From NCBI GenBank assembly GCA_019748395.1, contig JAIEPM010000331.1, positions 1-32,178 on the forward strand: DNA of 32,178 nt. Reading direction: 5' to 3'. The stretch comes from Candidatus Obscuribacterales bacterium. GTDB lineage: Bacteria; Cyanobacteriota; Vampirovibrionia; Obscuribacterales; Obscuribacteraceae. The number at the start of each line of letters is the position of its first letter. Position 1 is the first letter of the stretch. The position numbers and the translations under genes were made by a program. The notes under the pieces are model-generated. The model was not told where the DNA came from, ran no database searches, and worked only from the letters and a program-made list of their open reading frames with translations. Positions 3,649-32,017 of this stretch are shown piece by piece.

Positions 3649-3686
3649 GAACAAGTGCCGAGATACGCTGATCTCGACACTTGTTC
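3649..3686. promoter_or_regulatory. Long hairpin between the bacterioferritin-like gene and hutI
   Basis: Two 16-base arms (GAACAAGTGCCGAGAT and ATCTCGACACTTGTTC) pair at 15 of 16 positions around a six-base loop; the one mismatch is a possible G-U pair in one transcript. It begins 17 bases after the stop of the bacterioferritin-like gene and ends about 45 bases before the hutI ATG. No run of U follows on the minus strand, so it may stabilise the upstream mRNA end, attenuate read-through, or bind a dimeric regulator. Confidence 0.6.
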
Positions 3687-10825: not shown

Positions 10826-10869
10826 AAAAAGAGAGAATCCGGTCTTTTCAGGCCGGATTCTCTCTTTTT
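10826..10869 (-). terminator. Strong terminator of rplI
   Basis: Two perfect 17-base arms (AAAAAGAGAGAATCCGG and its complement at 10853-10869) surround a ten-base loop. Read on the minus strand the stem begins about 20 bases after the rplI stop and ends in a T-run. The symmetrical A and T runs also allow it to work in the other direction. Confidence 0.9.
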
Positions 10870-15096: not shown

Positions 15097-16566
15097 CTAA
15101 TCTATTTTCTGTCTGTCCAGAACAGTGACTGATTCAATGTGATAGGTTTGCGGGAAAAGGTCAAGCGGTTGTATTGATTTGCTCTTATATCCGCATTCGC
15201 TGAGAATTTTCAGGTCACGTGCAAGAGTGGCCGGGTTGCAACTTACATAAACAATTCGTCTGGCCTCCATGCCGGCCGCGCAAATCAATGTCTCTCGGTC
15301 CACCCCTTTTCGAGGCGGGTCAAGAATAATCAGATCCGGTTTCAAGTTTTCACCCGAGAGCTGCGGGAAAACCGATTCAACCGTGCCGCATATTGCTTTG
15401 ACGTTTTCCACTGAGTTTGACTGCAATATCAACTCGGCATCTTTAATCGCATCTTCCACTTCTTCAATGGCAATGACTTTATGAGCAAGCGGGGACACCC
15501 AGATTGCCATACTCGCAACGCCGGCAAATGCGTCAATTACCAGGTCGAGCTTCTCCTTTCCAAGCGACTCGGCCAGCTCTTTTGCGGCTTGCAAAACAAG
15601 GTCCATCAAAATTTCTGCCTGTTTTGAATTTACCTGGAAAAAACTTCCTGTAGATATGCGGAACTTGAAATTACTCTTTTGATTTTGCTTCTTCAATATC
15701 GCCGAGCTGAGCTCTTCAATAATATGGTCGGCGCCGCCCAGCAGCCGGGTTTTCTTGCCCATAATTCGATTTCCGCGGGCATCGTTGAAGTTTATGCATA
15801 CGCCCTTCAGCTTGCCTGGAAAAGAGTCAATCAAGGCTTCTGCGAGTTTTTTTAAGCGCTTTTCCAGCTCAGTCTCAAGTTTTTGCTCGCTTAAATTAAG
15901 AACCAGAGTCAAAAGAACAGTATCTTCAGAAACGCTATGGCGTGCGATGAAATGCCTGATTAAGCCGCTATGAGTTTTTTCTTTGTATGCGCTCAATCCG
16001 AAATCCTCGGAAGCTTCCTTGGCTGCTTCCAGAATCCGGTCTAGTAACTCAGGTTGCACCGGACAGTGTTTGATGTTGATCAGCTCGTGAGAAGCTTCCT
16101 TGTAATATCCGGCCAGTATGCGGCTGGATTTTTCCGGCGAACTCACCGGGTACTGAACTTTGTTTCTGTAATGCAGTGAGTTCTCGGCTTCAAGCGCATC
16201 TTTAACTATGGAGGGGTCAATTCCTGTCATATGTCCGATTAATTGCTTAACCATGTCGGTTTTCAAATTCAACTGTTCTTCGTATTTGATATGCTGCCAC
16301 TGGCAGCCGCCACAAAGTTTGAACAATTTGCAGGGCGGCTCCTGTCTCAAATTGGACGGATGTTTCAACTTAGTGATTCGGGCGTGAGCGAAATCTTTTC
16401 TTACATCGTAAAGCTCGAGATCGGCAATATCTCCAGGCACCGCCCTGTCCACAAAAATGGCCAGACCTTCGCTTTTGCAAAAACCCTGTCCGCCCGGAGC
16501 AATTGAATCTATGCGGATGCCTTCAAGAATTTGATTCTTTCTGAATGAATGTCTGGCTTTGCTCAA
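15097..16566 (-). CDS. rlmD: 23S rRNA (uracil-5-)-methyltransferase, RlmD/RumA type
   Basis: A 489-aa S-adenosylmethionine-dependent methyltransferase of the TrmA/RumA family. A TRAM RNA-binding domain (about 10-68) is followed by a [4Fe-4S] ligand set C79, C85, C88 (CKLFKLCGGC) and C168. The methyltransferase domain has the SAM loop VIDAFAGV (from 343), DPPRKGVD (416-423), the nucleophile C443 in YVSCNPATLARDL, and the general-base glutamate E478 in HIESV. It methylates uracil C5 in 23S rRNA; U1939 is the E. coli RlmD site, but the exact position here (U1939, U747 or both) cannot be told from sequence. The stop of the upstream secreted-protein gene is 2 bases away, so the two are co-transcribed. 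Confidence 0.94.
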   Translation of the reverse strand: MSKARHSFRKNQILEGIRIDSIAPGGQGFCKSEGLAIFVDRAVPGDIADLELYDVRKDFAHARITKLKHPSNLRQEPPCKLFKLCGGCQWQHIKYEEQLNLKTDMVKQLIGHMTGIDPSIVKDALEAENSLHYRNKVQYPVSSPEKSSRILAGYYKEASHELINIKHCPVQPELLDRILEAAKEASEDFGLSAYKEKTHSGLIRHFIARHSVSEDTVLLTLVLNLSEQKLETELEKRLKKLAEALIDSFPGKLKGVCINFNDARGNRIMGKKTRLLGGADHIIEELSSAILKKQNQKSNFKFRISTGSFFQVNSKQAEILMDLVLQAAKELAESLGKEKLDLVIDAFAGVASMAIWVSPLAHKVIAIEEVEDAIKDAELILQSNSVENVKAICGTVESVFPQLSGENLKPDLIILDPPRKGVDRETLICAAGMEARRIVYVSCNPATLARDLKILSECGYKSKSIQPLDLFPQTYHIESVTVLDRQKID

Positions 16567-30056: not shown

Positions 30057-31541
30057 TCAGTTTATCGGCAGAGGCAGACTAAACCAGAATTCGCTGCCTT
30101 TTCCGGGCTCGGAATTAACGCCGATTTTGCCGTCATGCTCTTCTACTACCATCTTGCAAATGCTCAGCCCCAGACCGCTACTTCGAGTTTTTGAGTTTCT
30201 GGCTTCCGATGTTTGCGAAAAATGTTTGAAGAGCTTTTTCTGCGACTCAGCATCGATTCCCGGACCTCGATCTTTGATTGAGAAGCGCGGCATCTGCTCA
30301 TGTTTTTTTACTTGGATATCTATTTGAGCTTTCTCCGGGCTGAATTTAACAGCGTTGCTCAATAAATTCGCTATGACCCTTTTCAGGAGATCTCGATCAC
30401 CCATGAACTCATAGTTTTCCATGCTCAGCTCAACGATTATGCCTTTCTCTTCGAAGAGTCCTTGTGCGGCATCTCTGCTTGCTTCCACGAGTTCGACGCT
30501 GTTGAGTCTTTCCGGGAAAATCTCAAACTTACCGGCGCTGAGTTTTTCAATGTCCAGAAGATCGCTAATCAGGTTGCTGATTTGCTCAAGGCCTCGGCAG
30601 GCTCGACGTAGATATTCGTTTGTTTTTGCTGGAAGTTCTTCTTGCTTTTGGGCTAGACCGACTGTGATTTTTGCTGCCAGCAAAGGACTTCTGATGTCAT
30701 GAGCAATCATGGCATAAAGCTCACGCTCTTTGGCTTTTGCCTCTCTTAAAGCATCGGCCATTTCACGAAAAGCCTCATCCAAGCTTCTAATTTCGTCGGC
30801 GCCGCCGACTGGAGGATTTAGTGCCTCGTTCTTTTTGAGCAGTACAGTATTGTCTTTTATGATGGCAAGACGCGAGCGGATCTCTTTGCTGAAGATATAG
30901 CCTACCCAGACTGCGATCAACGCGCTTGTTATTGCCGCCGCGATTATCCAGTTGCGTTCTTTTGCACGAGTTTGTACCTGGAGCTTGTTAGCCTTGTTGC
31001 TCAAGTTCATTGCATTTATACACAGGTCTTGCTGTTCATGTAGAAAGCGAGGAACAAGTTCAAGAAGGCTCGTTTTTAGCTCGAAAAGCTCGCAGGCCGA
31101 GTCTATCTCAAGTTTACCGCTGAGAAGGCTGCGGGCTCTGCTGAATGTTGTTCTGAGTGTTGCGGCTGTAGCCAGCATTTTGGCGCTGGCTTGTGATGAT
31201 TCCGAGTCTTTAAGTGCTTCGGCCTTTACGCGTTCCAGGGTTTGATCGAGCAGATTCAGATCTCTGTCGACCGCTTCCAGATCTTCCCCGCTGTATCCAG
31301 CCAGTGCGTTTTGTAAATGCTGGAAAATTCCTGCGGAACTGAATGACATGAGCGCGCATTCTGCAAGTAAGCGGCGATAATGCGCTTCTCTGTTAGCTTG
31401 CGACTCAAGCTTTTTATTTTCGAAAGTGATCAGTCCAAGAAAAACCAGTTCAAGCGTTATCGGTAGTCCTATTATCAGGAGCCCCTTTTGGGCAAGATTA
31501 CCCGGCAGAACGCGGAGCTTCTTCGAACCTCCCTTTGTCAA
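30057..31541 (-). CDS. Second orphan membrane histidine kinase, TTG start
   Basis: A 494-aa kinase with the same architecture and length as that at 12170-13654: membrane segment 1 (20-40), a helical sensor region, membrane segment 2 (198-218), HAMP (219-270), HisKA with H281 in LYAMIAHDIRSPL, N-box NLLSNAVKFS (N392, N396), G1 DRGPGID (424) and G2 SSGLGLSICKMVV. The N-terminal motif LAQKGLLIIGLPITLELV parallels LTQKALILVAVPLLFELV of the first kinase, so they are paralogues. The start is TTG at 31541, with GGAGG 8 bases upstream. A hairpin at 31512-31556 would hide that site. A 149-aa gene ends 26 bases upstream on the same strand, so they are likely co-transcribed. No response regulator is nearby. 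Confidence 0.93.
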   Translation of the reverse strand: MTKGGSKKLRVLPGNLAQKGLLIIGLPITLELVFLGLITFENKKLESQANREAHYRRLLAECALMSFSSAGIFQHLQNALAGYSGEDLEAVDRDLNLLDQTLERVKAEALKDSESSQASAKMLATAATLRTTFSRARSLLSGKLEIDSACELFELKTSLLELVPRFLHEQQDLCINAMNLSNKANKLQVQTRAKERNWIIAAAITSALIAVWVGYIFSKEIRSRLAIIKDNTVLLKKNEALNPPVGGADEIRSLDEAFREMADALREAKAKERELYAMIAHDIRSPLLAAKITVGLAQKQEELPAKTNEYLRRACRGLEQISNLISDLLDIEKLSAGKFEIFPERLNSVELVEASRDAAQGLFEEKGIIVELSMENYEFMGDRDLLKRVIANLLSNAVKFSPEKAQIDIQVKKHEQMPRFSIKDRGPGIDAESQKKLFKHFSQTSEARNSKTRSSGLGLSICKMVVEEHDGKIGVNSEPGKGSEFWFSLPLPIN

Positions 31542-31556
31542 GTTCGAAGCCTCCGC
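31512..31556 (-). promoter_or_regulatory. mRNA hairpin occluding the ribosome binding site of the second kinase
   Basis: In the minus-strand transcript, GCGGAG pairs with CTCCGC (31551-31556 with 31512-31517), and CTTCGAAC pairs with GTTCGAAG (31542-31549 with 31521-31528), giving 14 base pairs with one unpaired G (31550) opposite AAG (31518-31520). The ribosome binding site GGAGG lies in the stem and the TTG start (31541-31539) is the first codon of the 13-base loop. Such an arrangement would block ribosome entry unless the stem melts or is opened. Confidence 0.65.
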
Positions 31557-31567
31557 AATTGCAGGGT

Positions 31568-32017
31568 TTACCAGCCGAAGCCGTAAAACCTCAGTCCGTC
31601 GATGAGACTTATGCCCTTTTGTGATGCAGTTTCAAACCCTTTAAGCAGGAGCTCTAAGCAGATCAGATCTTGGTCAATGAATTTTGCTGCATCTTTAGCC
31701 AGCTTAAGGTCATGTGCGGCGACGAACTGGCCTCGTTTCAGAACTTCTTCCGGTTCTTGTTTCAGGTTTGCGGCAATTTCATTTAAGTCGGCATATTCAG
31801 CTTTGCCCAATTTGCCGGTTCTTTGCAAGATTTCAATCACCAGACTTTTTGCGGGGTCGGCAAAAAAGTCACGATTTTCTCTTCGATGCCTTGAGCCGTA
31901 GTCTTCAGTGTTCAGTTTGATTAGCTGCACGGTCTTGCCGATAGCCTTTGTTTTGCTTTGCTTTCGCGAGTTGAAGCTGCCAAATAACGATGATGTGGAA
32001 TTCAGTACTCTCGCCAT
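31568..32017 (-). CDS. Small helical protein upstream of the second kinase
   Basis: A 149-aa soluble protein. The first 50 residues are basic and Ser-rich (ARVLNSTSSLFGSFNSRK), then mostly helix (VIEILQRTGKLGKAEYADLNE, LKLAKDAAKFIDQDLICLELL). The block LGKAEYADLNEIAANLKQEP has a winged-helix-like spacing, but no domain is certain. The ATG at 32017 has AGGGAG upstream. It ends 26 bases before the kinase start, so it is probably the first gene of that operon and may help it sense or respond. This is inference from position only. Confidence 0.65.
   Translation of the reverse strand: MARVLNSTSSLFGSFNSRKQSKTKAIGKTVQLIKLNTEDYGSRHRRENRDFFADPAKSLVIEILQRTGKLGKAEYADLNEIAANLKQEPEEVLKRGQFVAAHDLKLAKDAAKFIDQDLICLELLLKGFETASQKGISLIDGLRFYGFGW

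Follow-up and report, generated by a model that had tools for sequence, protein, structure and literature searches.

Ribosome termination structures (RTSs) are stable RNA structures lying just past a stop codon, with the next gene at least 25 nt away, and have been proposed to insulate that gene from re-initiation (Chemla et al., 2020; PMC7518266). As described in the same paper, they form a statistical class that was tested mainly in synthetic operons. In the coupled gene pairs MS2 coat-lysis and f1 VII-IX, the Shine-Dalgarno (SD) sequence of the downstream gene lies in a hairpin, both genes are on the same strand, and the upstream reading frame extends into, or right through, the inhibitory structure (PMC12548453). 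Intrinsic terminators, too, have a GC-rich hairpin a short way past a stop codon, followed by a U-tract. In RNA thermometers, the SD sequence is paired in a stem.

The locus described here lies in a stretch of 32,178 nt (the window) from a Candidatus Obscuribacterales bacterium (contig JAIEPM010000331.1). As in an RTS, a stable structure occurs just past a stop codon, that of a 149-aa gene; unlike in an RTS, the hairpin also contains the SD and start of the next gene, encoding a sensor histidine kinase, and should therefore reduce fresh initiation too. As in the MS2 and f1 pairs, the downstream SD is in a hairpin and the genes are on the same strand, but the upstream frame stops 11 nt before the stem and 26 bases before the TTG start of the kinase. 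In contrast to RNA thermometers, the hairpin has a predicted stability much too high for melting at growth temperatures, and it differs from an intrinsic terminator in having no U-tract past the 3' arm, the stem being followed by GUUCUGCC. The features are listed in Table 1.

Table 1. Features of the 149-aa gene/kinase junction (positions in the window; pairing as in the predicted fold)
Feature	Position	Strand	Remarks
Sensor histidine kinase, 494 aa	30057-31541	minus	HisKA + HATPase_c (Pfam); orthologues in G030, G013 and, in part, G017
TTG start of kinase	31539-31541	minus	aligns with ATG of orthologues
149-aa gene	31568-32017	minus	related small proteins share a C-terminal G(W/F/Y)GW
Hairpin	31512-31556	minus	16 bp (6 + 10, one G-U), 1x3 internal loop, 9-nt terminal loop
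Lower 5' arm, GCGGAG	31551-31556	minus	pairs with 31512-31517; carries most of SD
Unpaired G	31550	minus	5' side of internal loop
Upper 5' arm, CUUCGAACUU	31540-31549	minus	includes first two bases of TTG start
Terminal loop, GACAAAGGG	31531-31539	minus	
Upper 3' arm, AGGUUCGAAG	31521-31530	minus	kinase codons 4 to 7
Unpaired AAG	31518-31520	minus	3' side of internal loop
Lower 3' arm, CUCCGC	31512-31517	minus	kinase codons 9 and 10; pairs with SD arm
Shine-Dalgarno, GGAGG	31550-31554	minus	8 nt 5' of TTG; from sequence and pairing probabilities
Outer helix, GGUAAACCC + GCA with UGC, GGGU, UUGCC	31572-31560 with 31507-31491	minus	encloses UAA stop of 149-aa gene

The original prediction had described a 14-bp hairpin with a small internal loop at these coordinates; the structure and its position were confirmed, the number of pairs being 16. 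Burial of the SD was also borne out by the predictions, with four of its five bases paired (predicted probability 0.98-1.0 at 37°C) and the last G free. A second SD-like sequence, GGGAGG (31533-31528), lacks a suitably spaced start codon. The TTG, which had been placed in the loop, was instead found at the top of the stem, where the two Ts are paired (probability about 0.95-0.98) and the G alone opens the loop. Similarly, the distance from the upstream stop to the stem, given as 12 bases, came to 11. The hairpin was the dominant predicted fold in every context tried, i.e., alone and within 111, 261 and 401 nt. It is enclosed by an outer helix, which takes in the UAA of the 149-aa gene on one side and extends to kinase codons 14-17 on the other. 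TTCGAA occurs twice within the hairpin (31548-31543 and 31527-31522), as part of an imperfect direct repeat, GGAGG-C-TTCGAA/GGAGG-TTCGAA, that spans the kinase start (31554-31522, minus strand) with a spacing unique in the genome. No other copy of the hairpin sequence was found in the genome, and this uniqueness ruled out a repeated or mobile element as its source.

The TTG is the only in-frame ATG, GTG or TTG ahead of the first membrane segment of the kinase. Orthologues were sought among the proteins of 60 relatives, in 50 genomes of the family and by a scan of genome contigs, yielding two full orthologues (42-45% identical) and one in G017 that is cut off before its start. In orthologues L015 and L016, the alignable part begins at an ATG in almost the same position (MAGKRRSSLPGTLAQKGL and MKGGPPSSLPGTLAQKGL, versus MTKGGSKKLRVLPGNLAQKGL in the window kinase); because their frames remain open further upstream, this alignment supports the TTG start but does not prove it. 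Compared with the window kinase, L015 and L016 also have roughly 100 extra residues separating HisKA from the sensor part. Both full orthologues start on ATG and lack the hairpin, with predicted footprint opening costs of 12.9 and 16.5 kcal/mol, and both have a response regulator divergent upstream and no small gene before the kinase. The complementary arms that the original prediction had sought in homologues are thus missing from the only two full orthologues; these are, however, too distant (at the above identity, and with a different upstream gene) to be decisive. The window kinase is not next to a divergent regulator, and regulators 60% and 59% identical occur on contigs C342 and C290 of this genome, whose group carries many paralogous kinases.

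The 149-aa protein had no Pfam or NCBIfam match. Its relatives (L003-L007 and L011-L013) are 125-150 aa long and share the ending given in Table 1; the family is represented by two or more copies in this genome and also occurs in two relatives of the same genus. None of these genes adjoined a kinase in the loci inspected, and the gene pair was found in no relative searched, being known from this contig alone. In plasmid and viral collections, searches found neither a kinase match over the full length nor any relative of the 149-aa protein. That the hairpin is a conserved element belonging to the 3' end of the 149-aa gene was ruled out, since the relatives of that gene have no shared comparable hairpin after their stops. 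At the end of the contig (32164-32178), the minus strand reads GTGCTCTTCCGATCT, which we take to be the end of an Illumina adapter; it is probably an assembly artefact, and the upstream sequence beyond it cannot be trusted.

Folding calculations show that the hairpin is unusually stable beyond chance. Its fold energy was -22.4 kcal/mol, with a z score of about -4.1 (-3.8 to -4.4), and none of 200 shuffled sequences was as stable; among 204,640 55-mers of the genome, 0.37% folded as well. The background was 1.49 of the 6.47 Mb of the same genome, with gene starts called by a simple script. The kinase start region was the most stable among 306 called genes and ranked third of 1067 for local stability in the larger set (1.49 Mb), although such ranks overstate the case because the site was selected for being striking; on visual inspection, both starts with a higher rank resemble internal ATGs. 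The predictions support a non-random use of coding bases in the pairing, since only one of 3000 synonymous recodings, made at genome codon usage with protein and leader fixed, was as stable. The predicted cost of opening the 30S footprint at the kinase start, which also counts pairings other than the hairpin, was 20-21 kcal/mol (20.2 in the ranking) compared with a genome mean of 12.3. This placed it 38th of 1063, a value that is high but not exceptional.

Equally stable 55-mers beginning 0-12 nt past a stop were found for 44 of 1056 called genes, whereas a control position inside the reading frame, 300 nt ahead of its end, gave 4 of 1056; strong hairpins are thus about ten times commoner after stops than at this control position in this genome. 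A U-tract was present in 17 of the 44 and missing, as in the kinase hairpin, from the other 27, some of which may be terminators missed by a simple U count. Within gene pairs no more than 80 nt apart there were five such hairpins in 312, the kinase junction included, and the other strong post-stop hairpins inspected had no clear SD and start buried in them. The mean dip after stops was weak genome-wide (about -1 kcal/mol versus shuffles, at +24), and extra structure was not seen at close gene pairs in general, which had slightly less if anything. Since strong hairpins are frequent after stops here, one near a start can belong to the end of the preceding gene.

Two further structures were observed in the window. 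At 3649-3686 (minus strand), 17 nt past the stop of a 144-aa gene (3703) and ahead of an imidazolonepropionase-like gene, there is a 16-bp hairpin with a 6-nt loop (-27 kcal/mol) and no U-tract. A 20-bp inverted repeat flanked by runs of A and T lies between two genes at 10826-10869, and is likely to be a two-way intrinsic terminator.

On both features that could be computed, the junction resembles an RTS. Such structures show a run of five or more 40-nt windows, between -10 and +20, that are more strongly structured than shuffled sequences, with one at or below -6 kcal/mol, and they have a co-directed gene at least 25 nt downstream. At the kinase junction the gap is 26 nt, and the windows from +5 to +20 were all negative relative to shuffles, with a minimum of -14.1 kcal/mol; the shuffling was of single bases, that in the paper being codon-preserving (PMC7518266). 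A consensus scan revealed no promoter or terminator at the hairpin, there was no tRNA, and Rfam 15 gave nothing above the curated cut-off, with only a chance-level match on the other strand.

The original prediction had interpreted the hairpin as a translational switch, either a thermometer or a device coupling the kinase to the 149-aa gene. Our predictions lend no support to a switch, the stem staying closed both on heating and under a terminating ribosome, and such readings, for which the models provide no positive evidence, are weak. A thermometer is scarcely credible: burial of the SD is all that speaks for it, while the predicted fold was unchanged from 20 to 70°C, pairing of the four SD bases was still 0.89-1.0 at 60°C, so that the stem would not melt in the growth range, and the structure is not conserved, being missing from two (albeit distant) orthologues. 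Folding at 20-70°C thus ruled it out. As to coupling, toeprints in E. coli put the leading edge of a ribosome at about +15 or +16 relative to the P site. For a ribosome terminating with the upstream stop codon in its A site, that edge is predicted to fall at 31559-31558, leaving one or two bases between it and the stem. When the RNA was blocked to this point in the footprint model, the outer helix was lost but SD pairing remained at 0.98-1.0, and it disappeared only once the block reached 31553, about 5 nt further. Because the upstream stop is 11 nt before the stem, a terminating ribosome would therefore abut the stem without opening the SD; upstream translation would not disrupt the SD structure, as coupling by unfolding demands.

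We consider it unlikely, then, that the kinase is made only if the 149-aa gene is translated, with ribosomes that end there either helping to unfold the hairpin or starting again at the TTG. The shared strand, the 26-nt gap, the weak TTG start and the buried SD all fit with such coupling, as does the outer helix, which holds the upstream stop and in the model would open under a terminating ribosome; in E. coli, coupling has been reported for rpmI-rplT at +52 nt (PMC12548453). However, the predicted ribosome edge does not reach the inner stem, which remains paired in the model, and gaps near 20 nt almost abolished coupling in six tested pairs (PMC10666635). In addition, f1 VII-IX loses coupling when the stop is moved well upstream of the hairpin, i.e., unfolding there requires the upstream frame to enter the hairpin, rpmI-rplT being the longer-gap counter-example (PMC12548453), and stable structure directly after a stop inhibits re-initiation (PMC7518266). 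With the stop ahead of the stem, the SD still paired at the predicted edge and a gap that is long, the position of the stop does not favour coupling as had been proposed. A better layout exists in the same genome, at a TPR-like gene with a TTG start (L129, 14483-15263, minus strand; start at 15263), whose SD is within a hairpin; the upstream frame builds the 5' arm, and its TGA sits in the loop beside the TTG. This is the layout expected for translational coupling, making L129 a good candidate. The long stem with its internal loop could also be a target for a small RNA, protein or metabolite that opens a true switch in trans, or a substrate for processing by RNase III. This is decidedly unlikely, with no Rfam family above the curated score, no conserved homologue and no known partner. 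Very improbable, too, is a lineage-specific hairpin responding to two signals, a single structure built from the end of the small-protein gene and the opening codons of the kinase, in which terminating ribosomes would open the outer helix and a second signal the inner stem, both being needed for the kinase to be made.

We tentatively favour the view that this is a stop-proximal intercistronic hairpin over the only start of the kinase, damping its translation and insulating it from the 149-aa gene. A hairpin of the sort common after stops in this genome would happen to overlap the only start of the next gene; pairing of the SD and half of the TTG would lower translation of the sensor kinase, and the hairpin would shield that start from ribosomes finishing the 149-aa gene. 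Damping and insulation would together result in a low level of kinase, and, on the basis of the models, the hairpin probably keeps the kinase weakly translated. What the computations show is the fold itself, how rare it is at starts, that it closely follows a stop, and that a terminating ribosome is not predicted to open it; co-transcription of the two genes, together with damping and insulation in the cell, is inferred. Several results weigh against this reading: few of the strong post-stop hairpins lie in close gene pairs and the others inspected bury no clear SD and start, the footprint cost is not exceptional, the gene pair occurs in no relative searched, and the dip after stops is weak across the genome.

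The main rival, which we regard as somewhat unlikely, is that the structure has no regulatory role and arose by chance or rearrangement, the kinase having come to sit behind the 149-aa gene at a junction that is self-complementary. Consistent with this, the gene pair occurs in no relative, the kinase orthologues have a divergent regulator upstream and the inspected relatives of the 149-aa gene are not beside a kinase; the hairpin is missing from both full orthologues, and the site was picked as the most striking of many. The direct repeat, unique in the genome, points the same way: because TTCGAA is palindromic and occurs twice behind GGAGG, a short duplication would yield a hairpin at once. 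Two stems in register, together with the outcome of the synonymous recoding, nevertheless exceed what a 6-base palindrome gives, and the intact frame of the kinase implies that its start must work to some degree. That the two TTCGAA boxes at the kinase start, 21 bp apart, form an operator at the DNA level is extremely improbable, since TTCGAAC and GTTCGAA at this spacing occur once elsewhere in the genome, no more often than a reversed control, and no promoter matched at the site.

The hairpin is an ordinary though striking single case. If the damping and insulation reading is true, RNA structure, and not a promoter, would determine how much is made of one among the very many histidine kinases encoded in this genome, and the hairpin would add a further case to the start-site and stop-proximal structures already known.
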